Assembly: GCA_031286265.1 (NCBI GenBank)
Contig: JAITUP010000186.1
Span: 1-32,827, forward strand
DNA length: 32,827 bases
Source: Chitinispirillales bacterium
GTDB lineage: Bacteria; Fibrobacterota; Chitinivibrionia; Chitinivibrionales; Chitinispirillaceae
Reading direction: 5' to 3'
Part shown: positions 2,287-26,895 of the stretch, in pieces
How positions within the stretch are numbered: the stretch's first letter is position 1
Layout of the letters: each line of letters opens with the position of its first letter
Program-made: the position numbers and the translations under genes
The notes under the pieces: generated by a model
Told to the model about the DNA's origin: nothing
The model's input: only the letters and a program-made list of their open reading frames with translations
Databases searched by the model: none

Positions 2287-3676
2287 ACTTCAATCCCTTT
2301 AGTATTTCAATGATGATTGACCTATGCAGTATCATTGTTGCCAAAATCGGAATGGCGTTGTACCACCATTGGATATCGTGGAATGTATTTAAGCCTAAAA
2401 ATGCTACCAGCACCAAAAACGCGGGCATGAATCTCATTATCGGGTATTTTACCGGGAACAGTCTACCTGAGATGACGGTTCTTAAATAGAAATAGACTAA
2501 AAATGCCGCACCGGTGGAAATAGCCGCGCCGCGCGCACCGAGGAGCGGGACAAGATAAAAATTCCCGACCAAGTTAACTAACGCGCCGGCTAACGCCACA
2601 ATCAAATAAAGATGCGTCCGTTTCTTCAATCCCATGCCGATGCCGGTGATATCGCCTACAATGTGTATGATTGGCGCGATGATTAAAAACGGCATTATGT
2701 AGACCGCGTCTCTGTAGGACGGCGCGAGAATCAGTATGATAATATCTTTGAAAAGCAGTAATGCCCCACCGGCGGCCAATGTCGCTACCGCCGCGTATTT
2801 AAACATGTTTTCAAAAAAGCGATAGTCCCGGCGATCCGCCTCATACCTTTCAAACGCCGCGGGAGCCCAATATATGTTGAAACCTGTTTGTAGCAGCGTC
2901 AACAAAAACACATATTTGCTTGCGACGGCATAAAGGCCGATTTCTTCAAACGGTGAATAAACGCGCAGCGCGATTTTGTCCATGCCCTGAAATATAAACA
3001 TCACCGCAAGAACGGGAACCATGGGCAGCCCATAGCTGAGGATCCGCTTCAGTTCGGCGCGGTTAAAAATCGCCGTTTCTATTTTTCGCGTCCAGAATCG
3101 CCGTTCCGCAAAAATGTATATAAGTATGGAAACGGAAGAATGAGCAATAATCCCCCAAATAATAGCATGAAATGTAGACGCGATGAATTTTGCATAAAAC
3201 ACCACGGTAACAAGATAGGCGATCGCGCCGGCAATCTGCCCTGCCGACAGCACGTGTCCGCGCTTGCTCAGGCGAATGAGGCCAAGCGCATAATTATTAA
3301 TCGCAAATAATACGATGCTACACGCAAGCAAAAGCATCGCCGTGAAATCCGGCTCATTGAAAAGCGCCGCCGATACGGGCTGCCAAAAAAACAAGGTGCA
3401 AGACGATATGGCAATCGTCGCGGTAATCGAAATAAAAAAGCATAACCACACGAATGAAGCCTTCTCGCTCTCACCCTTTTCATGATACATCCGCAAAAAA
3501 CTTTGATCCGCACCCAAAAGCCCGAGCTGAAACACAGACATCAACACCAAACGAAACATCGCGGACTTCCCAAATTCCTCCGGAATAATCAGGAGCGTTA
3601 TTATCGGAGCGGAAAGAAACGAGATGGCAGCCGTTACCCAGCTACCGTAGGAAAATGTTATAAATCGTTTTATCAT
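2276..3676 (-). CDS. Polysaccharide flippase, Wzx/PST type (MOP superfamily)
   Basis: The 466-residue protein is hydrophobic throughout, with about 12-14 predicted membrane segments. It begins with the family-typical N-terminus (FITFSYGSWVTAAISFLSAPI). Length and composition fit oligosaccharide flippases that move lipid-linked sugar repeat units across the inner membrane for O-antigen or capsule assembly. The glycosyltransferase divergently transcribed at 3930 supports a surface-polysaccharide role. The ATG has no strong ribosome-binding site. The 3' end is overlapped by the hairpin at 2247-2286. Substrate cannot be predicted; a related MOP-family exporter is the main alternative. Confidence 0.88.
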   Translation of the reverse strand: MIKRFITFSYGSWVTAAISFLSAPIITLLIIPEEFGKSAMFRLVLMSVFQLGLLGADQSFLRMYHEKGESEKASFVWLCFFISITATIAISSCTLFFWQPVSAALFNEPDFTAMLLLACSIVLFAINNYALGLIRLSKRGHVLSAGQIAGAIAYLVTVVFYAKFIASTFHAIIWGIIAHSSVSILIYIFAERRFWTRKIETAIFNRAELKRILSYGLPMVPVLAVMFIFQGMDKIALRVYSPFEEIGLYAVASKYVFLLTLLQTGFNIYWAPAAFERYEADRRDYRFFENMFKYAAVATLAAGGALLLFKDIIILILAPSYRDAVYIMPFLIIAPIIHIVGDITGIGMGLKKRTHLYLIVALAGALVNLVGNFYLVPLLGARGAAISTGAAFLVYFYLRTVISGRLFPVKYPIMRFMPAFLVLVAFLGLNTFHDIQWWYNAIPILATMILHRSIIIEILKGLKSKD

Positions 3677-3810
3677 TTTATTTTGGGCAATCTTTCACAA
3701 TTTCCTGCCCTAATCCATCCCTAAGTAATTTTCTTCTAATCATAGAAGCAATATAACTTATGGACGGAGAGACAAAATTGAAATTTTGAGAAAATTTTTT
3801 CACAAATTTC

Positions 3811-7421: not shown

Positions 7422-8555
7422 TTATCCTATCCTGAGCGGCATAAGAAGGAACAAATCTTCACTATTTTTGTCTTTCTCGTCCGCGTATTCCGGAAATATC
7501 AGGCATGCGCTTATCTGCGTATTGACCTCAAATCGCACTTTTTCTGTTTTTATCGTGTCGAGAATTTCCATAAAAAATTGACCGTTAAAACCCATAATGT
7601 GCTCTTCACCGGAATATTCTACCGGCATGTTCCATTTTGTTTCGCCTCCGGTTTCTATATTTTTAACCGTGGCCTCCATATCGCCGGTTCTGAATATTAG
7701 CTTAACGAGACGGTCTTTTTGACTTGATAAAATCGCGGCGCGGCCAATCGTTTCAAGCATGGCAACTCTATCGGCAACGATTTTTTTAGGATTATTTTTG
7801 GGAATCACCCTGTCATATTCCGGATATTGTCCCTCAATAAGTTTTGACACCATTGCAAACGACGGTGTCGAAAAAGAAATATATCTTTCACCAATCACAA
7901 CTTTTAGCGATTCGTCCTTATCTTTGGAATCGGTTATGCGCATCAGCGTTTCTACACTTTTTCGCGAAACAATTTTGCTAAGACTTTCTTCAACGGGCAA
8001 ATTAATATCAACAAATGAGTGCCCGAGGCGACTTCCATCGGTAGCGACCATTCCGGTTTTATCCGATGATAATTCCCACAAAATGCCACACAAAACGGGG
8101 CGCGTTTCATCTTTTGAAGCCGCAAAAGATGTTTTTTGTATGATTTCACGAAGAACAAAACCGTTTATGCTCAACTCCACTCCGTCTTTTATTTCAGGAA
8201 CACCTGGAAAATCGCTTGAATCGGCCCCCGCTTCCTTATGGAAACCTTTTTGAGACGCAGATTCCATAAGCATTACCATTCCATCAAGCGACAGTGTAAT
8301 AGCGCCCTCGGGGAATACCCTGACAGCATCAAAAAATCTTCGAGCGTTAACAGTAATATCAAACGGACCCTCGCCCGACGCGCCTACGGTGACGCGCAAC
8401 GAGTGATCGGCATCCGTAGCCACAATTTCAAGAATTGAATCCGAATACGAGAGCTTGAAATTGGACAATATCAAAAGGGAACCTTTCGACGGAACAACCG
8501 GAAAAGCTTTTTGCACCGCGTCAAGCAAATCTTTTTTTTGAATTACAACCGACAT
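7422..8555 (-). CDS. dnaN: DNA polymerase III beta subunit (sliding clamp)
   Basis: The 377-residue protein spans all three clamp domains. It starts MSVVIQKKDLLDAV, has an ATDADHSLRV segment equivalent to the usual ATD-sLEl motif in domain 1, ATDGSRLGHSF in domain 2, and ends with the diagnostic LLMPLRI. It forms the ring that tethers the replicative polymerase to DNA. The gene follows dnaA on the same strand across the AT-rich putative origin. Length is normal and no key segment is missing. Confidence 0.97.
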   Translation of the reverse strand: MSVVIQKKDLLDAVQKAFPVVPSKGSLLILSNFKLSYSDSILEIVATDADHSLRVTVGASGEGPFDITVNARRFFDAVRVFPEGAITLSLDGMVMLMESASQKGFHKEAGADSSDFPGVPEIKDGVELSINGFVLREIIQKTSFAASKDETRPVLCGILWELSSDKTGMVATDGSRLGHSFVDINLPVEESLSKIVSRKSVETLMRITDSKDKDESLKVVIGERYISFSTPSFAMVSKLIEGQYPEYDRVIPKNNPKKIVADRVAMLETIGRAAILSSQKDRLVKLIFRTGDMEATVKNIETGGETKWNMPVEYSGEEHIMGFNGQFFMEILDTIKTEKVRFEVNTQISACLIFPEYADEKDKNSEDLFLLMPLRIG

Positions 8556-8599
8556 GTTTCACCATCCTATTACGTTAATTTATCTAAAAATTCAGTTAT

Positions 8600-8917
8600 T
8601 TTCCCAAAACTCACACATATCAACATTGCGCATATATAACCACTATAACTACTATTCTATTAAACAATAAAGAAACAGTAATTAGATATGTTGATACACG
8701 TTAATAAAGCTGTAACCCATTGATATTTATACAGATAGGTATGTTGATACCATACGGGTTAACTGTCTGTTGATATGTGCATAACGTGTTTATTAATGAA
8801 AAATCGTCAATTACCAACACGTATCTACACGTTATCAACACAAAACATGTTAAAAGATCAACGTCCGACATAAAATAATATTTTTCAGACGAAATATCCA
8901 CATTATTATAAAAAAAA
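8600..8917. other. Putative chromosomal replication origin (oriC)
   Basis: The 362-base dnaA-dnaN gap has no gene, is very AT-rich and contains a cluster of DnaA-box-like 9-mers. TTATGCACA at 8776-8784 (minus strand) is an exact match to TTATNCACA. Near matches are ATATCAACA at 8617-8625, TGTTGATAC at 8689-8697 and 8742-8750, TGTTGATAT at 8768-8776, TTATCAACA at 8832-8840 and ATATCCACA at 8894-8902. The A/T tract from about 8866 to 8930 next to the dnaA 3' end could be the unwinding element. Boxes occur in both orientations. Location beside dnaA and near parS sites supports the call; a cumulative-skew plot was not possible. Confidence 0.7.
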
Positions 8918-9958
8918 TTATTTATTTAAAATTGATATTATATATTCTACGTCCTGTGCCACCGATTTATCGGCATTCATCAATTTTTCAACTAACTGTA
9001 TGGCATGGATGACTGTGCTGTGATCTCTGCCGCCGAAGTTCAAGCCTATGGATTTCAGGCTGTGATTCGTAACGTTCTTCGAAATATACATTGCGACCTG
9101 CCTGCAAAACGCGACTTCTTTTCTTTTATTTTTTTCACGAATATTGTTTACCGGAACTTTATAAAAATCGGCTGTTTTTTCAATTATTGCGTCTATGGAT
9201 ATTTTTGATTTTACGGTTTTAATATTGTCCTTAAGCGCGTCTTTGGCTAGATCAAGCGTTATGTCGCTTTTATGTATGGACGCAAAGGCAAGGAGCCGTC
9301 TTACAGCGCCTTCCAATTCTCTTATATTGGATGAAATATTTTCGGCTATGTAGTACAAAATTTCGTTAGGAAGGCTTAAATTTCCTTCTTCTGCCTTTTT
9401 TTCAAGAATTGCGACACGGGTTTCAAGATCAGGCGGTTGAATATCTACGGAAAGCCCCGATTGAAATCTGGAAATTAACCGGTCTTGCAAACCTTTTAAC
9501 GACGACGGAGGAAGATCGGACGTTAGTACAATCTGTTTTCCATTTTGATAAAGCGTATTAAAAATATGAAAAAATTCTTCTTGCGTACTTTCTTTTCCGG
9601 CAAAAAATTGAATGTCGTCCATAAGTAATACATCACTCTCTCTGAACCGTGTTGTAAATTTTTTAGTATTGCCGTCTTTTATTGATTCTATAAAACTTAT
9701 ATAGAATTCTTCGGATGAAATATACGTTACCACACGCTGTGAATCGATATTAGCAACATAATTTCCGATTGATTGCAATAGATGTGTTTTTCCAAGTCCT
9801 ACGCCGCCATATATAAGTAGTGGATTAAATTTAGTTTTTCCCGGCGCTTCAGCCACGGCCATAGCCGCGCTCTGGGCAAATTTGTTGCTAGGCCCGACCA
9901 CAAATTTTTCGAGCGTATAATGTTTATTCAAGTGTGGATACAGTATATCGATTTGCAT
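8918..9958 (-). CDS. dnaA: Chromosomal replication initiator DnaA, lacking domain I
   Basis: The 346-residue protein has the AAA+ core (Walker A GGVGLGKTHL about residues 51-60, Walker B LLMDDIQF about 110-117, RELEGAVRR) and the domain IV DNA-binding signature GGRDHSTVIHAI at 309-320. The conserved core starts at residue 12 (HYTLEKFVVGPSNKFA), where a typical ~450-residue DnaA would already have ~100 residues of domains I and II. An in-frame TAA lies nine bases upstream of the ATG, and no domain I sequence is visible in 9959-10153. Domain I normally contacts the helicase and mediates self-assembly, so initiation may differ here. No ribosome-binding site is seen. The ATPase and box-binding functions look intact. 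Confidence 0.95.
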   Translation of the reverse strand: MQIDILYPHLNKHYTLEKFVVGPSNKFAQSAAMAVAEAPGKTKFNPLLIYGGVGLGKTHLLQSIGNYVANIDSQRVVTYISSEEFYISFIESIKDGNTKKFTTRFRESDVLLMDDIQFFAGKESTQEEFFHIFNTLYQNGKQIVLTSDLPPSSLKGLQDRLISRFQSGLSVDIQPPDLETRVAILEKKAEEGNLSLPNEILYYIAENISSNIRELEGAVRRLLAFASIHKSDITLDLAKDALKDNIKTVKSKISIDAIIEKTADFYKVPVNNIREKNKRKEVAFCRQVAMYISKNVTNHSLKSIGLNFGGRDHSTVIHAIQLVEKLMNADKSVAQDVEYIISILNK

Positions 9959-10153: not shown

Positions 10154-10588
10154 TTATTTTTCCAATGCTGTCAATATTCCCACAAGTTCGTTACGAATTT
10201 CCGAAATAAAATTTTCGGGCGGTTGCAAAAACGGTGCAGACGGTGTATCAAATAAATCAACTTTTTCACATGATTTTTTCTCGTTGTGGCGTTTTGTACC
10301 GAGACGTTCTTCACGGCGTTCTTCCGTTATTTTCTTTTGAGCTCCTGAGACTGTATATTTTTCTTCCTGCAACAAGTGTTTTATTCGGAGAATAAGTTCG
10401 ATATCTCTGTCTTTGTATGCACGGTTGCCGGAACGGTTTTTCTTGGGGCGTAATTGGGTAAAATCTTTTTCCCAACCGCGCAAGGCATGAGGTTCAAGGT
10501 TTGTCATTTGGCATACTTCGCTGATTGTATAATAGAGCTTTTTGCCGACGACGGGTTTGGACGAGTGGTTGTTTTTTGTTTGCAACAT
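10154..10588 (-). CDS. Small MerR-family transcriptional regulator
   Basis: The 144-residue protein has an N-terminal MerR-type winged-helix domain at about residues 17-85: YYTISEVCQMTNLEPHALRGWEK (helix-turn-helix and wing), GNRAYKDRDIELILRIKHLL, and YTVSGAQKKI. After this the sequence is charged and lacks recognisable effector-binding residues or metal-ligand cysteines. It resembles the compact MerR-like regulators of unknown signal found in many Gram-negatives. The ATG is preceded by GGGAGAT. It sits between gpsA and dnaA on the same strand, with AT-rich non-coding DNA of about 195 bases separating it from dnaA. Confidence 0.85.
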   Translation of the reverse strand: MLQTKNNHSSKPVVGKKLYYTISEVCQMTNLEPHALRGWEKDFTQLRPKKNRSGNRAYKDRDIELILRIKHLLQEEKYTVSGAQKKITEERREERLGTKRHNEKKSCEKVDLFDTPSAPFLQPPENFISEIRNELVGILTALEK

Positions 10589-10652
10589 ATTTTACTTGTA
10601 TCTCCCATAAGAAACAAAAATCAGAATATCAAAATAAAAACATAAAACATTA

Positions 10653-11669
10653 TCACCAGAACTCCGGTTTTGAATCTCTCATCATCAAATCGCGAACAGC
10701 TTCCTTTGCCGATTTATTCTCAAATAACGTTTTGTAAATCTGTGTTGTGATGGGCATTTCTATTCCTATTTTTTGAGAAAGGGCATAAGCGGAACGAGCG
10801 GTTTCTACACCCTCTGCTACCATTGTCATTTGACCAAGCGCCTGTTCGAGTGTTAGCCCGCTTGCGATTAGCTCCCCCATTCGACGGTTGCGGCTGTGTT
10901 TGCTTATACAGGTGGTAATTAGATCTCCTATTCCCGCGAGCCCGGAGAACGTTGACTCCTTCGCGCCCATCTTACGGCCGAGGCGCATCATTTCCGCAAT
11001 GCCGCGCGTCATTAACGCGCCTTTTGTGTTGTCGCCGAATCCCATTCCGTCAATTATTCCCGCCGCGACCGCAATCACGTTTTTAATGCTTGCCGCAAGT
11101 TCTACCCCACGCATATCGTCGTTTGTGTAAACTCTAAATGTTTCGGTTGAAAAATTTTCCTGAATAAGCTGCGCGAGTTCCTGATTTTCGGACGCGGCCA
11201 CAACAGTGGTCGGTATCCCTCGCAATACCTCTTCGGCGTGCGAAGGACCGCTCAGCGCGACGATTCTATTTGCCTTGAGGTCGGGAATCTCGTTCATCAA
11301 TACATCCGTCATCAGTTCAAGCGTGCTGATCTCAATTCCCTTTGATGCCATTACCCAGCCTTTGATTTTGTCGAATACGGATTGATTTGTTTCTGCGACG
11401 GCGGCTTTGAGCGTTTGGCGCATCGTTTGCGACGGCACTACGCAAAGAATGATTTCTGCGTCATCAAATATTTCACCGATGTTGTTGGTGATTTTTATTT
11501 CCCGGGGTATAACGATTCCGGGGAGTTTCGTAGGCAGCTCCCGCGTGTCATTTAGCTGGCGTGTGGTTTCTGGGCAAAACTCCCACATTGTCAAACGATG
11601 CCCCTTCCTATGGAGCAGCATGGCAAGAGCGATACCCCAGGAACCGGCGCCTAAAATTCCTATGTTCAT
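10653..11669 (-). CDS. gpsA: Glycerol-3-phosphate dehydrogenase [NAD(P)+]
   Basis: The 338-residue protein has the N-terminal Rossmann motif GILGAGSWG, the substrate-domain segments SGPSHAEEV and ELAASIKNVIAVAAGI with its conserved lysine, and GLAGIGDLITTC plus SRNRRMGE near the C-terminus. It reduces dihydroxyacetone phosphate to sn-glycerol 3-phosphate for phospholipid synthesis in the cytoplasm. I chose the ATG at 11669 because GGAGGT lies nine bases upstream and the family begins at MNIGILGAG; an upstream start at 11702 would run through that site. It lies 53 bases after der on the same strand, probably one transcript. Confidence 0.97.
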   Translation of the reverse strand: MNIGILGAGSWGIALAMLLHRKGHRLTMWEFCPETTRQLNDTRELPTKLPGIVIPREIKITNNIGEIFDDAEIILCVVPSQTMRQTLKAAVAETNQSVFDKIKGWVMASKGIEISTLELMTDVLMNEIPDLKANRIVALSGPSHAEEVLRGIPTTVVAASENQELAQLIQENFSTETFRVYTNDDMRGVELAASIKNVIAVAAGIIDGMGFGDNTKGALMTRGIAEMMRLGRKMGAKESTFSGLAGIGDLITTCISKHSRNRRMGELIASGLTLEQALGQMTMVAEGVETARSAYALSQKIGIEMPITTQIYKTLFENKSAKEAVRDLMMRDSKPEFW

Positions 11670-11722
11670 AATAATAGTACCTCCAAAATTAAAATTTTCC
11701 ATGGAGCGGCTTGTGTTCGCCC

Positions 11723-13156
11723 CTACATATCGACATTGTCGTTATCCACATCATCAATCTTATTACCACCACGTTTTCGAGCAATTGGCCTGAATTCCAA
11801 AACCAATGGACACCCGCAGAAATTGTATTTTTCGTAAATTTTGTTTGCTAAAAACCGCTCATATCCCGGATTAATCATGTCGGGATGCGTTACGAAAAAA
11901 CGGAAACATGGAAACGTCGCGTTGACCTGTTTTGCGCCGAGGAAACGTACTTCGCTGCCCGGAGTTACGGGATGCGGATGCGCTCGCACCCAATCAAAGA
12001 CCAGATTTTCAAACTCCGCGCCGCCCACGTTCACACCCATCCGCTCTTCAACTTCAAAAACTTTGTCCATGAGCGACGATACGCGTTGCCCCGTTAGCGC
12101 GGACAATGAAATCATCGGCACATTTTTTAGCTCTTGATATTCTTCGCGCGCTTCGGCTACCAAATTATCAAACGTTTTGTGATCCTTTTCCAAAATGTCC
12201 CATTTGTTCCATACAACCACGACACCTTTACGCTCCTCGAAAATCTTGCGCAATATCCGCATGTCCTGCACGCCCATTCCCACATTCACATCAATCACTA
12301 AAACGCAAATATCGCATCGTCCGATACTGTCAATAGCACGCATGTTAGAATAGTATTCCAGATCATTTTTTTTGACACGCGCTTTCTTGCGCAGCCCGGC
12401 GGTATCTATCAATATAATTTTTTTGTCGCCAAAATCAAGCAAAGAATCTATGGCATCGCGTGTTGTGCCGGGTTTTGAATCAACAATCATTCGGTTTTGC
12501 TTGAGCAATTTGTTGACAAGCGACGATTTTCCGGCGTTGGGTCTGCCGACAATCGCGACTTTCAGCCCGTCAATCTCGGGCATCGGTTCCTGTTCGTCGT
12601 CGGTGCCTGATGAATTGATGTCGTCGTTTATACGCGCAACTATTTCATCTAACAAATCTCCGACGCCCTTACCGTGCAGCGCGGAGGTTGCATACGGCTT
12701 GCCGAGGCCGAGCTGCATGTAGGACGGCACCTCATAAACCGCCTTTGCCGATTCCGCCTTGTTAACAACCAAAATAGTCCGTGAAGCAAATGACCGTCTA
12801 AGCTGCCTTGCGATAATCTGGTCAAAATCTGTAATTCCCGTCCCGAGTTCCACCATAAACAAAATCACCGCGCTTTCCCGCATCGCGATATCTACCTGCT
12901 CGTGTATCGCCTCCGGAATCGCCTCGCGCAAATTCGGGATCAGCCCGCCGGTGTCGACCAGCGTGAATTCCACACCGTTCCACACCGTTTTCATGTAATT
13001 ACGGTCGCGCGTAACCCCGGCTACGTCATCCACTACGGCTATCCGTTTGCGCAAAATCCGATTAAACAGGCTGCTCTTACCCACATTGGGCCGACCGACA
13101 ATAGATATTACTGGGAGCGGCGGTAATGCATTCGTATCCATAGGGTTAAAATACAT
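11723..13156 (-). CDS. der: Ribosome-associated GTPase Der (EngA)
   Basis: The 477-residue protein has two consecutive GTPase domains. The first has GRPNVGKSS, DTGGLI and NKAE; the second has GRPNAGKSS, DTAGLRKK and NKWD. The C-terminal KH-like domain follows (RVSSLMDKVFEVEE through LVLEFRPIARKR). Der supports 50S ribosomal subunit maturation. The first G4 motif is NKxE instead of the commoner NKxD, a variant I recall from other lineages. Both ATG 13156 and ATG 13141 are possible starts; neither has a clear ribosome-binding site. The intergenic region upstream (13157-13292) shows nothing definite. Confidence 0.97.
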   Translation of the reverse strand: MYFNPMDTNALPPLPVISIVGRPNVGKSSLFNRILRKRIAVVDDVAGVTRDRNYMKTVWNGVEFTLVDTGGLIPNLREAIPEAIHEQVDIAMRESAVILFMVELGTGITDFDQIIARQLRRSFASRTILVVNKAESAKAVYEVPSYMQLGLGKPYATSALHGKGVGDLLDEIVARINDDINSSGTDDEQEPMPEIDGLKVAIVGRPNAGKSSLVNKLLKQNRMIVDSKPGTTRDAIDSLLDFGDKKIILIDTAGLRKKARVKKNDLEYYSNMRAIDSIGRCDICVLVIDVNVGMGVQDMRILRKIFEERKGVVVVWNKWDILEKDHKTFDNLVAEAREEYQELKNVPMISLSALTGQRVSSLMDKVFEVEERMGVNVGGAEFENLVFDWVRAHPHPVTPGSEVRFLGAKQVNATFPCFRFFVTHPDMINPGYERFLANKIYEKYNFCGCPLVLEFRPIARKRGGNKIDDVDNDNVDM

Positions 13157-13292
13157 TAGTTAAGATAAAAAATCAAGTATTAATATTAAGATCGCCGCAA
13201 AGCGCGCGTTGAACAGATTTAGTTCGCGGGCAATTCAGAGAGTTTTACGGTTTACCAACAATTTATCGTCAACTCATCAACAATTTTTTTGG

Positions 13293-13652
13293 CTACAAAC
13301 TGCTCAAATCGACGCTTGGAAAATGTTCTTGCGCCAACTCAAGACTATCGTGTAGCGCAAGATTCGGTATTCTGTGTATGTTCATTGTTTTCAGCATTTC
13401 ACACACGTAGCTTGATGCGACCAAACGCAACGTATTTTTTGTGCCGATAACGGTTTTTAGAAATTGCACCAGTACGCCTATTTCCGAGGAGTATATCACC
13501 GTGGAGTTGACAAGCTCAATCACGGTGTCCCGGTTATTTTTGGCCGCGGTTTCCGCCTGTAGCACTTTTTTCAGATCCTCCGGGTCGGAGGCGCTTTCAC
13601 CGTTATACTTGATGAATAGCACTTCCTCCCGTTCAATCTTTATCAACGACAT
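13293..13652 (-). CDS. STAS-domain protein (anti-sigma-factor antagonist type)
   Basis: The 119-residue protein has a single STAS fold: SLIKIEREEVLFIKYNG as the first strands, VIELVNSTVIYSSEIGVLVQ as the core motif, and a C-terminal helix region HDSLELAQEHF. In SpoIIAA-like antagonists the core reads D-S-S/T-G and the serine is phosphorylated. Here it reads Y-S-S-E, so the serines remain but the aspartate and glycine are replaced, making classical partner switching uncertain. The ATG at 13652 has AAGGAGGA upstream. The first 20 bases overlap the end of the bactofilin gene, implying translational coupling and a role linked to the envelope cluster. No anti-sigma kinase is visible nearby. Confidence 0.85.
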   Translation of the reverse strand: MSLIKIEREEVLFIKYNGESASDPEDLKKVLQAETAAKNNRDTVIELVNSTVIYSSEIGVLVQFLKTVIGTKNTLRLVASSYVCEMLKTMNIHRIPNLALHDSLELAQEHFPSVDLSSL

Positions 13653-14019
13653 ATATTCCTCCTTTTTTTCCGGTGTTTTTTTCGTCGCCATTCTGCATGG
13701 AGCAGTTGCCGTTATAGATGACACCCTCTTTTATGACCAATTCCTTGGCACGGATGTCGCCTTTGACAATCGCCGACGTGTGAAGTTCGATTCTGTCCTC
13801 AATATACATATTTCCAAGGACTTTTCCAAAAACTAACGCGTTTTGGGCTTTTATTTCCGCCTCCACCGAGCCGGTTTCGCCAATCGTAACCGTCCCAAAG
13901 GATTGGATTTTCCCTTTGAACGTTCCATCGATGCGTATGCTGTGCTTAGCGTTGATGACGCCATCAAACGCGCATCCCGTACCGATAATGTTGAGAAGAC
14001 TGTTGCCACTTTTCGACAT
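13633..14019 (-). CDS. Bactofilin (polymer-forming cytoskeletal protein)
   Basis: The 128-residue protein shows the bactofilin beta-helix pattern: a short polar N-terminus, LNIIGTGCAFDGVINAKHSI, then regularly spaced G-x-hydrophobic repeats (GTFKGKIQSFGTVTIGETG, ALVFGKVLGNMYIEDRIEL). The tail is charged. Bactofilins self-assemble into membrane-associated filaments and often localise peptidoglycan enzymes. The M23 peptidase gene immediately upstream matches the classic M23-bactofilin pairing (compare CcmA and Csd peptidases of Helicobacter). I chose ATG 14019 because the purine-rich stretch before it (AAAGGAGGGGAAGG) is a ribosome-binding site; the start at 14040 would translate through it. 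Confidence 0.93.
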   Translation of the reverse strand: MSKSGNSLLNIIGTGCAFDGVINAKHSIRIDGTFKGKIQSFGTVTIGETGSVEAEIKAQNALVFGKVLGNMYIEDRIELHTSAIVKGDIRAKELVIKEGVIYNGNCSMQNGDEKNTGKKGGIYVVDKD

Positions 14020-14113
14020 TTTTCCTTCCCCTCCTTTCATATATTTTATGCGTACCGATGAACTAATCTATCGGACCATTGTTTCCGTTTGCCGAGGTCG
14101 CGTCCGCGGCAGC

Positions 14114-14935
14114 CTATCTTTCATTTGCCGTCCCGATGAAATTCATAGGGTCGACGTGTCTTTCATCCTTGAATATTTCGTAATGCACATGCGGTGCCGT
14201 TGAACGGCCGGTATTGCCCACTAGCGCTATCGTTTGCCCTCTATTAACCCTGTCTCCCGGCGACACAAGCACCTGCGAGCAGTGGCTATAGCGCGTTTGG
14301 AAACCGTTGTCGTGCCGGACTTCCACCGTAAGGCCGAGATATTTGTCGAAGCGAACTTCCTCTACCATACCCATCGCTGTGACTCTGATTGGTGTGCCGT
14401 GTGCAGCCGCTATATCTATGCCTTTGTGCGTATCTTCGGAAAAATGTTTTGTAATCCATCCATCAACCGGCATGATGTTGGGGACCGAAGCCGCGAACCC
14501 CGCGGCATCGGCCGCCGCTCGCTCGGTATCGACATGGGTAATGGTTGAAATCTCCTGGTTGCTCCTGTCGGTAACGGCTCTCGCAATGGCGCCGCCGGAC
14601 GATGCCGACCCCCACATATCAGTGATATTCGCAAGTCGATGCAGATAGGCCGTCATGCTGTCTATGTTTGCCATCTTTTGGGAAGATATTTCCAAATTGT
14701 TGTTGTGCTCCCTGAGACGAATATTTTCTTGCACCAAATTGTCGAATAGTTGCAATTTCATAGCGATTTCGCTGTTTTTGTAGATTAGAATTATCAGGCT
14801 GGTAATGATAAACAGGGCGGAAATCACCGTCAAATAAATGGTATAGCGATGTATGCGCAGGGTAAAAGGGCTACCACGGCCCTCCGGGCAGAACATAAAC
14901 GTGTAGTGATTGTTTTGTTTATTGCGCTTTTTCAT
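14114..14935 (-). CDS. Membrane-anchored M23 (LytM) peptidase
   Basis: The 273-residue protein has a cytoplasmic basic N-terminus, one membrane segment at about residues 32-52, a short coiled-coil-like stretch (55-100) and a C-terminal LytM domain. The zinc and catalytic residues are present: H170 and D174 in HKGID, H218 in RYSH, and H249/H251 in PHVHYE. It should therefore be an active endopeptidase cutting peptidoglycan cross-links in the periplasm. The ATG is preceded by AGGA six bases upstream. The gene lies between parB and the bactofilin gene on the same strand, which suggests a cell-shape role. Confidence 0.95.
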   Translation of the reverse strand: MKKRNKQNNHYTFMFCPEGRGSPFTLRIHRYTIYLTVISALFIITSLIILIYKNSEIAMKLQLFDNLVQENIRLREHNNNLEISSQKMANIDSMTAYLHRLANITDMWGSASSGGAIARAVTDRSNQEISTITHVDTERAAADAAGFAASVPNIMPVDGWITKHFSEDTHKGIDIAAAHGTPIRVTAMGMVEEVRFDKYLGLTVEVRHDNGFQTRYSHCSQVLVSPGDRVNRGQTIALVGNTGRSTAPHVHYEIFKDERHVDPMNFIGTANER

Positions 14936-14952
14936 TTAATATCCTGCTGTCC

Positions 14953-15852
14953 TCATGTTAATAATATATCAAAAACCCTGGCCAGATCGTCTTCACTAAA
15001 ATAATCTATTTCCACCCGGCCTTTCCCGCTCCCCGCCGTTTTTAATCTTATCGGTGTCCCGAACTTATATTGCAGTTGTTCCAGCGCGTTTGTGATATCC
15101 GGAGCTTCCGGTGTTTTGACGATAGATTTTGGTTTTGACGGCATCGGTTCCTTTTCCGAAAACGCGGATGGTTTGGCCAGCTGCTCCACATCCCTCACCG
15201 TTAGCTTGTCCTCTATAATTCTGCGCGCCGCTTCTAACTGTTTTTCTTCGGTATCCAACGCCAAAACAGCTCGCGCGTGCCCGGAGCTGATTTCGTTTTT
15301 CCGTACCATTTCTTGAATTTTTCCGGGAAGATTCAGCAGGCGCAGGGCATTTGTTATGACGGATCTGCTCCTGCCTACCTGACTTGCGAGTTCTTCGTGC
15401 GTATAGCTGAATTCCAGTATTAACTTTTGGTACGCCAACGCTTTTTCGATTTCGTTCAACTGTTCGCGTTGAATGTTTTCCACAAGAGCAAGCTCGAGCA
15501 TTTCCTTGTCGGTAACGTTTGTTCTAACGATACACTGGATACAGTCGCGCTTCAGATATCTGAACGCCCGGAATCTACGCTCACCGGAAATTATTTGGTA
15601 TCGATCCCCATTTTTGCGCAGGACTATCGGTTGCAACAACCCCTGAACTTTGATGCTCTCAGCCAACCCCGCGATTTCGCCATCATCAAAATCAATACGC
15701 GGCTGATATGGGTTCGTATCTATCGCGTTTATGTCGACATCTTGTATTTCGCCGCTCTTGTCCTCTGATTCCGAATGGGTCGGAATCAGATTGGCAATAC
15801 CTCTACCCAAAGCCTTGCGCTTATTGCTTTTGCTATTTTGTGTTTTGTTCAT
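14953..15852 (-). CDS. parB: Chromosome-partitioning protein ParB
   Basis: The 299-residue protein has the KALGRGIANLIP box at the N-terminus that contacts ParA, the CTP-binding ParB/Srx region with GERRFRA at 90-96 and ENIQREQLNEIEKA, a helix-turn-helix (THEELASQVGRSRSVITNALRL split across about 150-172), and a C-terminal dimerisation domain ending in RVEIDYFSEDDLARVFDIL. It binds parS and spreads as a CTP-dependent clamp. Two perfect parS sites are in this window, at 17577-17592 and 19677-19692. The start codon lies inside the end of parA, with 20 bases shared. Confidence 0.98.
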   Translation of the reverse strand: MNKTQNSKSNKRKALGRGIANLIPTHSESEDKSGEIQDVDINAIDTNPYQPRIDFDDGEIAGLAESIKVQGLLQPIVLRKNGDRYQIISGERRFRAFRYLKRDCIQCIVRTNVTDKEMLELALVENIQREQLNEIEKALAYQKLILEFSYTHEELASQVGRSRSVITNALRLLNLPGKIQEMVRKNEISSGHARAVLALDTEEKQLEAARRIIEDKLTVRDVEQLAKPSAFSEKEPMPSKPKSIVKTPEAPDITNALEQLQYKFGTPIRLKTAGSGKGRVEIDYFSEDDLARVFDILLT

Positions 15853-16627
15853 TGTCCATCACTTCCTTGGCCAGCGTTAAATAGTTTTCGGCGCCTGCCG
15901 ACATAATATTGTACAAAATAATCGGTTTACCAAACGACGGCGCTTCACTCAGCCTGACGTTCCGCGAAATCACGACATTGAATACCCTGCCGGAAAAACA
16001 AGAGCGCACATCTTCCGCTACCTCTCGCGACAAGCTAAGCCTACCGTCATACATTGTCAATAACGCGCCCTCTATGACTAGTTTGGGGTTGAGGTTTTTT
16101 TGAACTTGCCGTACAGTGTTCAACAGCTCTGCCAGTCCCTCCAGGGCGTAATACTCACATTGAATCGGTATTAATACCGATGTTGCTGCAGTTAACACGT
16201 TTACGGTAACAAGCCCGAGCGATGGCGGCGAGTCTATGATAATATAGTCATATTCATCCGAAATAGCCTGTAGTGCCGAACGGAGCCGATACTCTCGTGC
16301 CATGGTGTTGACCAGCTCAATCTCTGCCCCTGCCAGATCGGGCGTCGCGGGCGCGACATCGAGAAATTTCATGTAATCCACAGTCTGACGGATATCGCGA
16401 ATCTCGACCGGATGGCCATCAACCTCCCTTTCGGTGATAACGTCATACATCGATAGTTCCACACTGCCTTTGTCTATGCCAAGCCCCGTAGTGGCGTTTG
16501 ACTGCGCGTCCATATCGACGATTAGCGTTTTTCGTTCCGCAGCGGCGAGACACGCAGCAAGATTGATGGAGGTCGTAGTTTTTCCTACGCCGCCTTTTTG
16601 GTTACAAACCGCAATAATTTTTGCCAC
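15833..16627 (-). CDS. parA: Chromosome-partitioning ATPase ParA (Soj)
   Basis: The 264-residue protein has the deviant Walker A motif KGGVGKTT near residues 11-18, the A' motif VDMDAQSN, Walker B IIIDSPPSLGLVTVN, and IPIQCEYYALEGLAEL, all diagnostic of ParA/Soj. It provides the ATP-driven nucleoid gradient that moves ParB-parS complexes. I chose GTG at 16627 because the family starts at AKIIAVCNQKGG and AGAGGG lies just upstream; a TTG at 16648 would add seven residues. It overlaps parB downstream and follows rsmG upstream. Confidence 0.98.
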   Translation of the reverse strand: MAKIIAVCNQKGGVGKTTTSINLAACLAAAERKTLIVDMDAQSNATTGLGIDKGSVELSMYDVITEREVDGHPVEIRDIRQTVDYMKFLDVAPATPDLAGAEIELVNTMAREYRLRSALQAISDEYDYIIIDSPPSLGLVTVNVLTAATSVLIPIQCEYYALEGLAELLNTVRQVQKNLNPKLVIEGALLTMYDGRLSLSREVAEDVRSCFSGRVFNVVISRNVRLSEAPSFGKPIILYNIMSAGAENYLTLAKEVMDNEQNTK

Positions 16628-16854
16628 AAAACCCTCTTTGTTTTTCAAACATTTTTATTCTATCAAACATGACCGCCCACAGAATCAACATTCTATCAAC
16701 ATTTGCGTCAATCTACACGAACATCAGCATGTTTTCGTAAAACAGGTTGATTTTTAACGTTTTGTATTATCTCAACACGTTTTTATTTTTGACACGATAC
16801 ACTACAATATACAGTTTTCCACAATCAAAATCAATACCCTTATCACGTTTTTTT
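16628..16854. other. AT-rich parA-rsmG intergenic region with DnaA-box-like words
   Basis: About 225 bases without a gene separate rsmG from parA. They contain TTTTCCACA at 16815-16823 (one mismatch to the TTATCCACA box) and a TATCAACA word at about 16692-16699. A TTGACA at 16789-16794 on the plus strand has no -10 at 17 bases and no gene downstream on that strand. The region presumably holds the parA promoter and might be a secondary DnaA-binding locus, but box density is far lower than at 8600-8917. Confidence 0.3.
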
Positions 16855-17541
16855 CTACAGGATAATCATCGATACCAAACTCAGCCCGTGTATAACGTTT
16901 CCTAGATCGTATTGTGCGATTTCGTTGACTTTCACGCCATCTCTGCTAGGTGTCATAGCTTCTAACTCTGCCGCGAATTGTTTTGTTTTGTACATGTACA
17001 TGTGTCCGTCTTTTGCCAAAAGTGGTTTTGCCTGCTGCGCAAATTTGTGTAATGTTCCCGTCCCGCGGGTAATCACGTAGTCTGCCTTGTGCCCCAGATC
17101 AATGTTTTCCGCTTTGCCGTGGACGATATTCAGATTATCAAACCCTAGCTCCGCTTTTGCCCGTTCCAAAAACGCAAATTTTTTTTGGTTTGGCTCTACC
17201 AACACAAACGAAATATCCGGACGAAATATCCTGACAGGGAAAACCGGAAATCCGCCGCTTGATCCGATATCAAACGTCACTGCCCCTCTCTTGAACCCAA
17301 ACAACAACAGCGGTTGTAGCGAGTCGCAAAAGTGACGCAAAAACAATTGGTCTTCATCCGCCTCCGGCACAAGTCTCGCGCCTTTGTTTTCCTCAAGCAC
17401 GAGGCCGAGGAATGTCAAAATCATATCTCTCTGCTCCGGTTCCGGCGACAGCCCAAGGCGCTCTAGCTCTTTTGACTCGTAGCTCGTTTTTGCACGCTCC
17501 ACAAACAATTTTTTTGGCCTACCTTTTTTACCTTTACCCAT
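16855..17541 (-). CDS. rsmG: 16S rRNA (guanine-527-N7)-methyltransferase RsmG
   Basis: The 228-residue protein has the order expected of RsmG/GidB: RHFCDSLQP, then the SAM-binding loop DIGSSGGFPVFPV, FVLVEPNQKKFAFLE, a VHGKAENI segment, and DYVITRGTGTLHKFA. It methylates G527 of 16S rRNA. The glycine loop reads GSSGGFP instead of the common GSGAGFPG, a mild deviation. An extra basic N-terminus (KGKKGRPKK) precedes the domain. It lies directly after mnmG, separated only by the parS palindrome, in the conserved mnmG-rsmG-parA-parB order. Confidence 0.95.
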   Translation of the reverse strand: MGKGKKGRPKKLFVERAKTSYESKELERLGLSPEPEQRDMILTFLGLVLEENKGARLVPEADEDQLFLRHFCDSLQPLLLFGFKRGAVTFDIGSSGGFPVFPVRIFRPDISFVLVEPNQKKFAFLERAKAELGFDNLNIVHGKAENIDLGHKADYVITRGTGTLHKFAQQAKPLLAKDGHMYMYKTKQFAAELEAMTPSRDGVKVNEIAQYDLGNVIHGLSLVSMIIL

Positions 17542-17570
17542 TTTTTCTCCCGCCCTACGCTGTTTTGATT

Positions 17571-17598
17571 GATTGATGTTTCACGTGAAACATCAATC
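17571..17598. promoter_or_regulatory. parS site 1 inside a 28-bp perfect palindrome
   Basis: TGTTTCACGTGAAACA at 17577-17592 is the exact bacterial parS consensus. Six more bases on each side continue the symmetry (GATTGA and TCAATC), giving a perfect 28-bp palindrome. It lies in the short gap between mnmG and rsmG, about 1.7 kb from parB. It should be the ParB loading site. T-rich sequence follows on the plus strand, so a side effect as a hairpin is possible. Confidence 0.97.
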
Positions 17599-19551
17599 AT
17601 TTTTTACCTGTTTGTTTTTGGCCTTCAACAAAAACATCGCCAAAACTGAAATATCCGCCGGCGTAATGCCGCCAATCCGTGATGCCTGGCCCAGAGTATT
17701 AGGACAAATTCTCCGTAGCTTCTCCTGTGATTCCGTGAGAAGACCAGGCACATTGTAACAAAAATCATCCGGTATCTGCGTTTCCTCAAGCCGGTGTAGC
17801 TTCTCAATTTCTTTGAGTTGCTTTTTTACAAATCCTTTGTATTTGATTTCCGACTCAACACCTAGCGCCAAAAACCTGTCGAACTGTGTGACCAGACACG
17901 AACAGACCGCTGATGTTTGTTGTGCCGATTGTTCGGGAATCAATGTGTCGGTGTTATCGTTATTACCAACACATTGTTCACAACCAACGTTTAGCTCACA
18001 CGCTATCAACAATTCTTTAATCTCAACCTCTGGCCGTCTGAGCAGTTCTCCGGCGATCCCGGGCTGGGAAATCGTCCCAATTCCCATTTTACCATATTGT
18101 TCCGGTGTAACCCTAATCCCGCCGAGCCACTCCTCAGTCCTCTTTTTCTTATCCCAAAATCGTTGCCGTTTATCGTATTGTGTTTGTGTTATTGTCCCCA
18201 AACTACGCGCAATCGGCATCAGCCGTTCGTCGCAGTTGTCTTGCCGCAACAGCAACCGGTGCTCTGCTCGCGACGTAAACATCCTGTATGGCTCGTCCGT
18301 CCCCTTCGTCACCAAATCATCAATCAACACTCCAACGTAAGAGGTGTCCCGCCCCAACACCACCGGTTTCTCCCCGCGTAACGCCAAAACCGCGTTAATC
18401 CCGGCCATGAGTCCCTGGCAGGCGGCTTCTTCGTAACCAGATGTCCCGTTTACCTGTCCGGCGAAAAACAGGCCCGGCACAATCCTAGACTCGAGAGACG
18501 GTTTCAGCTGCAACGGCTGAAAGTAATCGTATTCGATTCCGTATCCGGGCCGTACAATCCGTGCACGCTCAAGCCCCTCCATGCTCGCAACCATTTTTTC
18601 CTGCACGTCGCAGGGAAGACCCGTTGAAAATCCATTCAGATACAACTCGCAGCCGCTACGGGTCTCTGGTTCTAAATATAATACATGTCCGCCACGTTCT
18701 CCAAATCTTACAACTTTATCTTCGATCGATGGACAGTAGCGCGGCCCGGCCGACTGTATTTTTCCGGTGTACTGTAACGATCGATCCATGTTCTGCAATA
18801 TGTGTTGATGTGTTGTAGTATTGGTTTTTACCACCCAACAGACTATTTTATTGTGTAGTTTTCTCCGGGTAAAAAATGAAAACGGCCAAGGGTCGGCATC
18901 CCCGCGCTGCACCGTGAGCCGGGAGTAGTCCACCGATCGTCCGTCGATCCGCGGCGGTGAACTGGTTCTGAGCCGCCCCGAGGTGATACCAAGCGCACAG
19001 ATGCTTTTCGTTAACCCCGATGCTGATGGTTCCCCCATTCGCCCACCCGCAAAAGTATTCAGCCCGATGTGAATAGTGCCGTTGAGAAACGTTCCAGCAG
19101 TCAAAATGACTGCTTTTGTAGCGATTATTTCTCCGCTATCCATAGTAACGGCCAAGATTTTCTCTGTAGAAACGTCTAATTTTGCTGCCATGGCCTGAAA
19201 GATAGTGATATTTTGATGTTTTTTCAGCGCACGACGTGCCAAATCTCGGTAGAGAAGCCGATCAGCCTGTGCTCTTGGTCCCCAAACCGCACTTCCTTTG
19301 CTGGAATTGAGCATCCGAAAATGTATCCCTGCTTGGTCAATCAAATCAGCCATCAACCCGCCCAGCGCCCCAATCTCCCGAACAATGTTGCCCTTTGCCA
19401 CTCCCCCAATGGCCGGATTGCAGGACATCTGGCCGATGAGATCAACATGGCTTGTAACCAGTAACACCTTGGCGCCCATTTTGGCGGCAATGTGAGCGGC
19501 TTCAATTCCGGCATGTCCGGCGCCGATGACTATTATGTCGAATTTTGGCAT
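17593..19551 (-). CDS. mnmG: tRNA uridine-34 carboxymethylaminomethyl-modifying enzyme MnmG (GidA)
   Basis: The 652-residue protein has the FAD-binding motif IIVIGAGHAGIEAA, SCNPAIGGVAKGNIVREI, SSKGSAVWGPRAQADR, YCPSIEDKVVRF, and FFAGQVNGTSGYEEAACQGL, all diagnostic. With MnmE it modifies U34 of several tRNAs. The usual LKTGTPPR motif reads LRTSSPPR here. A cysteine-rich segment at about residues 530-565 (CEQCVGNNDNTD and CSCL) looks like a lineage-specific insertion. No clear ribosome-binding site is seen beyond a TAGG next to the ATG. It is the first gene of the mnmG-rsmG-parA-parB run. Confidence 0.98.
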   Translation of the reverse strand: MPKFDIIVIGAGHAGIEAAHIAAKMGAKVLLVTSHVDLIGQMSCNPAIGGVAKGNIVREIGALGGLMADLIDQAGIHFRMLNSSKGSAVWGPRAQADRLLYRDLARRALKKHQNITIFQAMAAKLDVSTEKILAVTMDSGEIIATKAVILTAGTFLNGTIHIGLNTFAGGRMGEPSASGLTKSICALGITSGRLRTSSPPRIDGRSVDYSRLTVQRGDADPWPFSFFTRRKLHNKIVCWVVKTNTTTHQHILQNMDRSLQYTGKIQSAGPRYCPSIEDKVVRFGERGGHVLYLEPETRSGCELYLNGFSTGLPCDVQEKMVASMEGLERARIVRPGYGIEYDYFQPLQLKPSLESRIVPGLFFAGQVNGTSGYEEAACQGLMAGINAVLALRGEKPVVLGRDTSYVGVLIDDLVTKGTDEPYRMFTSRAEHRLLLRQDNCDERLMPIARSLGTITQTQYDKRQRFWDKKKRTEEWLGGIRVTPEQYGKMGIGTISQPGIAGELLRRPEVEIKELLIACELNVGCEQCVGNNDNTDTLIPEQSAQQTSAVCSCLVTQFDRFLALGVESEIKYKGFVKKQLKEIEKLHRLEETQIPDDFCYNVPGLLTESQEKLRRICPNTLGQASRIGGITPADISVLAMFLLKAKNKQVKND

Positions 19552-19658: not shown

Positions 19659-20291
19659 TTAGCCACCTACCCCCAATGTTTCACGTGAAACACAAGCGCC
19701 GCGGTAGATACGTTTGTTGTACCATGCCACAGGATTTTTTTCGATATATTCGGCAATTTCCTGATAATCATTTTCGCTTCGAACAATGCGATTGTGGAAT
19801 GAGCTTCCCCAAACAGGAAACGCATATTGCATGGAAACGGTTTGTTTTAAGCTACTAACAACAGCGCTAACAGTAGGAACGGCAAGCGCTTGCCCATTGT
19901 CGGCAATCTGCCGACAATCATCGATAACTAATATCATATGCAAATGATCTGGCATGATGACGTGTACGTCAATGTATACGTTTGGGTAAATTTGCGAAAT
20001 ATTAATTATCGCGCCTTCAATCTTTCGCCCGACATCAAACAACACTACCTGCGGTAGCCCGGCGTTGCTCGGTGGACGATAGGTCAAACCGCCGTGCTGT
20101 TGTAGAAGCGGCGATCTGTTGTCTGTGGCCGTTGCCGCTTGAGTCGCGGTTGGCCGGTCGATTGCCGGTCCTACGACAGCGCTGAAAATTTCATTGCGAT
20201 TTTTTGCGCATATTGTCACAAAATTCACGCTGTATCGGCCATACCCATGACCCATCAAACGATTAGATCTACGGAACGATAAATTATTCAT
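19659..20291 (-). CDS. REP-associated tyrosine transposase-like protein (RAYT, Y1_Tnp)
   Basis: The 210-residue protein has the RAYT layout: RRSNRLMGHGYGRYSVNFVTI, the HUH motif PDHLHMIL (116-118), then SSFHNRIVRSENDYQEIAEYIEKNPVAWYNK with candidate catalytic tyrosines at 176 and 182. Such single-copy housekeeping-like transposases nick and move GC-rich REP hairpins. Two segments look expanded relative to compact members: residues 39-81, rich in A/T/P, and 124-143, encoded by DNA with a perfect 10-bp hairpin (19896-19918). The C-terminus reads through a perfect parS at 19677-19692. Whether it is active is unknown. Confidence 0.9.
   Translation of the reverse strand: MNNLSFRRSNRLMGHGYGRYSVNFVTICAKNRNEIFSAVVGPAIDRPTATQAATATDNRSPLLQQHGGLTYRPPSNAGLPQVVLFDVGRKIEGAIINISQIYPNVYIDVHVIMPDHLHMILVIDDCRQIADNGQALAVPTVSAVVSSLKQTVSMQYAFPVWGSSFHNRIVRSENDYQEIAEYIEKNPVAWYNKRIYRGACVSRETLGVGG
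19677..19692. promoter_or_regulatory. parS site 2, inside the 3' end of the RAYT gene
   Basis: TGTTTCACGTGAAACA matches the parS consensus exactly. On the minus strand it encodes VSRET near the RAYT C-terminus, seven codons or fewer before the stop. It lies about 2.1 kb from parS site 1 with mnmG between them, forming an origin-proximal ParB loading pair. Overlap of a perfect centromere site with a coding sequence is tolerated because the RAYT C-terminal tail is variable. Confidence 0.95.
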
Positions 20292-26675: not shown

Positions 26676-26895
26676 TTGTTTCTCCTTGCCCTATGTTTAT
26701 TGAAATATCAACATGTTTTTCTCGGCGTTTCCTGCGCATGCTTCCCACATCCTGTAAGCCCTAAAATAACCGCTAATATCAACACCGCTATAATATTTGT
26801 TTTTCTGTTATCATCATGTGTTTGAATCTGTTGTTATAAAATATTTGTTGTCGAGGTGTGAATGCAAAAGATTTTTTATTATATTCTTTATTAAT

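Follow-up and report, generated by a model that had tools for sequence, protein, structure and literature searches.

In Bacillus subtilis the chromosome replication origin (oriC) is situated between dnaA and dnaN, and in Escherichia coli it is located beside mnmG. For DnaA-trios, the elements of a basal unwinding system, the published pattern is a DnaA box, a spacer and the trios (PMC8287927). The residues of E. coli DnaA that contact bases are 399, 423, 432-435, and 438-439 (PMC5043019). TT(T/A)TCAACA has been proposed as the DnaA box of mollicutes (PMC3322544), and TTATCAACA has been predicted as the box of the linear-chromosome origin of Cyanothece 51142 (PMC4674748). Our literature search did not find a description of any Fibrobacterota oriC.

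The stretch of DNA analyzed here (the window, 32,827 nucleotides) constitutes contig C85 in a draft genome of 2.64 Mb that consists of 278 contigs. The closest named relatives of its DnaA come from Chitinispirillales/Fibrobacterota genomes. The minus strand encodes dnaA1 (8918..9958) and, downstream of it, dnaN for the sliding clamp (7422..8555). The two genes are separated by 362 bp with 28% GC (8556..8917), and parAB, rsmG, and mnmG are close to this gap. The gap had been put forward as a candidate oriC from the sequence of the window. This is backed by the clustering of boxes, by the architecture conserved in the relatives, and by the relatives' skew minimum, and we conclude that the gap is very probably the chromosome replication origin.

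DnaA boxes and conserved layout of the gap

The gap contains five exact copies of TATCAACA, at 8618(+), 8689(-), 8742(-), 8768(-), and 8833(+). As 9-mers, in the same order, they are ATATCAACA, GTATCAACA, GTATCAACA, ATATCAACA, and TTATCAACA. The original prediction gave the box as (A/T)TATCAACA; the core holds, but two of the five sites start with G, and the box is really NTATCAACA. Two of these 9-mers are the boxes TTATCAACA (8832..8840, +) and ATATCAACA (8768..8776, -), and the gap also has the box-like TTATGCACA (8776..8784, -). Another box-like site, GTATCTACA (8821..8829, +), is 11 bp from the box at 8832..8840.

The cluster exceeds what is expected by chance. In 5000 dinucleotide shuffles of the gap the expected number of TATCAACA was 0.06, and none of the shuffles reached the observed 5; for NTATCNACA the observed number was 7 and the expected one 0.14, again without a single shuffle reaching the observation. 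The whole assembly (2,635,164 bp) includes 200 copies of TATCAACA, i.e., 0.027 are expected per 362 bp, and at this density the Poisson probability of at least five copies in 362 bp is approximately 1e-10. All 200 sites were listed by their first base, and the gap proved to be the sole 362-bp stretch of the draft assembly with at least three of them. The predicted cluster of DnaA-box-like 9-mers is thereby confirmed. A genome-wide count of the 9-mer had been proposed as a further check: clustering is diagnostic, and the count alone is not. We rejected genome-wide over-representation as evidence for DnaA sites: the excess of ATATCAACA and TTATCAACA is similar whether a genome has Arg or Lys at position 399 of DnaA1. 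Elsewhere in the window TATCAACA occurs at 8006, 16694, 18004, 26706, 26777, and 28929. Two copies of ATATCAACA lie 71 bp apart in an intergenic region (26705-26784) upstream of a ribD-like gene.

The comparison set includes 19 homologous dnaA-dnaN gaps from throughout the order Chitinispirillales (Fibrobacterota), that of the window among them. An unbiased search for 8-mers in these gaps returned TATCAACA (15 of 19) and TATCCACA (13 of 19) at the top, and TATTAACA (13 of 19) was also among the leading words. In the direction of dnaA, the common layout starts with an inverted TTATCCACA approximately 15-30 bp past dnaA and a direct box near 90. A second direct box follows 52-53 bp further on, and after it come a CTATTACTATT-like tract and an AT-rich stretch; an inverted box is often present 45-65 bp further along. 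The window contains all these boxes and several extra ones. The inverted ATATCCACA (8894..8902, +) has the place and orientation of the relatives' dnaA-proximal TTATCCACA. The direct pair is represented by two copies of GTATCAACA with a spacing of 53 bp, the first at 8742..8750(-) and the second, the conserved trio-proximal box, at 8689..8697(-). The far inverted box is ATATCAACA (8617..8625, +), which lies between the unwinding element and dnaN and faces inward.

The probable unwinding element (8626..8688) has 24% GC, adjoins the boxes, and is enclosed between two inward-facing ones. Of the window's 60-bp stretches, 8632-8691 is among the three with the lowest stability. The CTATTACTATT tract is the counterpart of the DnaA-trios. 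The first trio of the window (8683..8685, minus strand) is 5'-CTA-3', or 3'-GAT-5' on the other strand, and is 3 nt from the box at 8689..8697; 16 of 17 gaps show [CT]T[AT] in the corresponding position. For trio-like runs located 3' of the anchor box in the 16 relatives (the window excluded) the sum is 106, compared with 58.8 +/- 6.1 after shuffling, and none of 2000 shuffles is as high. For the inward-facing box past the AT-rich stretch the summed mismatches are 23, compared with a shuffle mean of 40, and no shuffle is as low. The P values of both tests are somewhat optimistic because the anchor boxes were picked by eye from the printed gaps. The window's own trio tract is degenerate: a run of four trios at spacer 7 fits the published criterion (at least three consecutive NAN trios no further than 16 nt from the box), yet it is at the level of chance in comparison with shuffles (P=0.45).

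Boxes, clustering, layout, and the relatives' skew minimum at the gap are all computed observations. The following model is consistent with them. The oriC would go back to the order's common ancestor, and DnaA1 would bind the array of boxes with the consensus TTATC(A/C)ACA. The direct boxes 53 bp apart, together with the extra copies around them, may guide a DnaA filament into the AT-rich element at 8626-8688. The strands would then open beside the box at 8689-8697, starting from the first trio CTA, with the inward-facing box 8617 on the far side. The species presumably still fires from this gap. We consider the model as a whole, from common ancestry to opening at 8626-8688, to be highly likely.

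Box preference and the two DnaA proteins

The original prediction regarded the box as lineage-specific and suggested that it had co-evolved with an unusual DnaA. The dnaA1 product is short (346 aa) and consists of DnaA domains III-IV only, with no DnaA_N; its DHST motif is intact, and Lys stands at the position of E. coli Arg399. The shift of the box to A at position 6 (A6) is wider than the species. Of the 50 boxes in the gaps of the order, 28 carry A at position 6, 18 carry C, and the remaining 4 carry T; of the 56 boxes in dnaA2 promoters, 37 have A and 19 have C. Upstream of the outgroup dnaA genes the ratio is the opposite, with 5 A and 32 C. G043 has this preference too, so that it extends to at least one further family of Fibrobacterota. 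Thus the box is specific at the level of the order and not of the species, and a similar TT(T/A)TCAACA had already been described for mollicutes. The kind of oriC is an ordinary one; the box preference belongs to the order.

A6 is therefore an order-wide preference that did not arise with the shortened DnaA of the species. We rejected the idea that position 6 co-evolved with the truncated protein, because A6 boxes co-occur with full-length DnaA1 in the order, and the base-contacting residues, including DHST, are ordinary, being identical in these full-length DnaA1 and in outgroups with C6 boxes. The A6 box does not coincide with a change of any known base-contacting residue, and none of these residues accounts for it.

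The sole box trait specific to the genus is a looser position 1. In the three gaps of the genus 5 of 14 boxes start with T, compared with 30 of 36 boxes elsewhere (Fisher P=0.002, uncorrected for phylogeny). Every one of the five DnaA1 known from the genus has Lys at position 399, and Arg399 is found in all the other compared DnaA1 of the order except for an aberrant copy from G009, which branches with outgroup DnaAs. Residue 399 is among the base-contacting places (PMC5043019), and position 1 might have loosened together with the Arg399-to-Lys replacement, as a small initiator-origin co-evolution compatible with oriC. We find this doubtful: the genus is a single clade and hence represents a single evolutionary event, and C or G stands at position 1 in three genomes with Arg (G025, G031, and G030). 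Genome-wide, the T:A ratio at position 1, measured as TTATCAACA:ATATCAACA, is approximately 1 in both Lys and Arg genomes, so any co-evolution is either limited to the origin or a matter of chance. Only in this genus-level form does the co-evolution idea survive, and weakly.

The five DnaA1 proteins available for the genus (that of the window and L091, L092, L095, and L099) are all 345-355 aa long and lack domains I-II. DnaA_N is present in the relatives' DnaA1 and in DnaA2, and it is absent from the three short DnaA1 that were scanned (the window, G004, and G002). No remnants of domain I were found upstream of the short dnaA; the hits in congeners were due to the frame extended upstream from the start in G017, which is probably antisense rpmH. 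In a tree of 72 DnaA sequences those of the order fall into two groups, the origin-side DnaA1 and DnaA2, and second copies also occur in other Fibrobacterota families. DnaA is present in Fibrobacterota as two paralogues, of which the origin-side one has lost domains I-II in this genus. The age of the duplication is unsure because the deep forks of the tree have weak support and some of its branches are extremely long. The copy adjacent to dnaN in G009, a member of the family (L106/L188), branches with DnaAs of Rhodothermota/Balneolota, and its dnaN is also distant (25% identity); it is either on a contaminant contig or a replacement.

The second gene, dnaA2 (G000:C238, L111, positions 2325-3734; L112-L130 in relatives), encodes a full-length protein of 469 aa. 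RDHST is replaced in DnaA2 by RDYST, RTHST, or RNHST, the first being the variant of the window's genome. Conserved TTATC(A/C)ACA boxes accompany nearly all dnaA2 genes of the order; they share a single orientation and are situated mostly 150-200 bp upstream as well as across the start codon. In the window's genome, one pair of TATCAACA outside the gap (C238:3916 and 3930) is in the dnaA2 promoter. We rejected the dnaA2 locus as a second origin, since no box array follows the gene and its neighbourhood is ordinary.

E. coli DnaA without domains I-II opens oriC in vitro and does not support replication (PMC5448010). By this analogy, a DnaA1 lacking domain I would depend on the full-length second DnaA or on another factor for helicase loading. 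It is conceivable, if rather unlikely, that the origin has two initiators, with DnaA1 (domains III-IV, Lys399) opening oriC on the relaxed NTATCAACA but being unable to load helicase, and the full-length DnaA2, with its diverged motif and its own promoter boxes, bringing domain I to the origin. If so, one gene would provide the binding function of DnaA and the other its helicase-loading function.

Two congeners count against the origin model: in G002 and G006 the short DnaA1 gene is followed by neither dnaN nor boxes. Searches by protein, Pfam, and profile did not find a chromosomal dnaN in the congeners G001, G002, G003, G006, and G007. In G002 dnaA1, with yidC and probably rpmH upstream, is followed by an unrelated 334-aa ORF in place of oriC-dnaN. 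The sole clamp-like protein of G006 has 678 aa and is perhaps from a mobile element.

GC skew and alternative locations of the origin

GC skew was judged locally, on contigs of the draft genomes (278 contigs in the case of the window). In G012 the top-strand skew is mostly negative over the 100 kb up to dnaA-dnaN and positive over the 53 kb beyond, and third codon positions switch at the same place. A local minimum at dnaA-dnaN is also found in G004, G010, G017, and G032. The skew of G025:C18 is largely uninformative, as the fetched stretch is mostly masked. The minimum expected at the gap is thus present in five relatives and not in the window, where the cumulative skew is lowest near 20-21 kb, approximately 12 kb from the gap at 8.7 kb.

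At the window's gap the skew does not switch, and the flanking block is inverted in comparison with relatives. The genes merR, gpsA, der, bactofilin, M23, parB, parA, rsmG, and mnmG (10154..19551) are all on the minus strand. The part from bactofilin to mnmG has the direction of dnaA here and is divergent from it in G004, G010, G012, G025, and G032. An inversion or another rearrangement of this parAB-mnmG block has probably displaced the window's skew minimum. A REP-type transposase-like ORF (19659-20291) lies at the far end of the block.

The minimum near 20.5 kb coincides with a gene-strand switch, and in E. coli oriC adjoins mnmG. One could therefore suppose that the origin is elsewhere, for instance at 20.3-20.7 kb upstream of mnmG, and that the boxes in the gap are a regulatory array of dnaN or a site of DnaA titration. 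We consider this improbable, because there is no box cluster near 20.5 kb (the other TATCAACA sites of the window are those listed above), the relatives have their skew minimum at dnaA-dnaN and an oppositely oriented mnmG block, and the conserved trio-like element sits within the gap. The notion that AT-rich composition produced the 9-mers by accident can practically be dismissed: the gap has only 28% GC and TATCAACA is over-represented genome-wide (200 copies versus 59 of the reversed control), but its count in the gap is never attained in dinucleotide shuffles, the cluster is unique within the genome, and the conservation of box positions across the order already refutes this reading.

Comparison with known origins

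With oriC placed in the dnaA-dnaN gap, an order whose members are mostly uncultured has a well-supported model of its origin, and the consensus TTATC(A/C)ACA with its layout can be used for locating oriC in related draft genomes. The order-wide trait, A6, is separated here from the genus-specific ones, i.e., the loss of domain I, Lys399, and the loose position 1. The latter provide a natural test of whether the origin-opening and helicase-loading parts of DnaA can occupy separate genes.

The conserved TTATC(A/C)ACA sites ahead of dnaA2 and across its start resemble autoregulatory DnaA boxes of dnaA promoters, but they belong to a second, origin-distant dnaA and not to dnaA1. The boxes of mollicutes (PMC3322544) and of Cyanothece 51142 (PMC4674748) share A at position 6 with Chitinispirillales. 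Those lineages are unrelated, however, and Chitinispirillales mixes A6 and C6 boxes within one origin. The B. subtilis-type oriC is also closely similar in its dnaA-dnaN location. With its basal unwinding system (PMC8287927) it shares an adjoining AT-rich stretch and, as far as the window's relatives are concerned, a direct box, a short spacer, and 3'-GAT-5' trios. The probable Chitinispirillales origin differs from it in a box that prefers A at position 6 in more than half of the sites, in the direct pair with a spacing of 52-53 bp, in the inward-facing box past the AT-rich stretch, and, for the window itself, in a degenerate trio tract.
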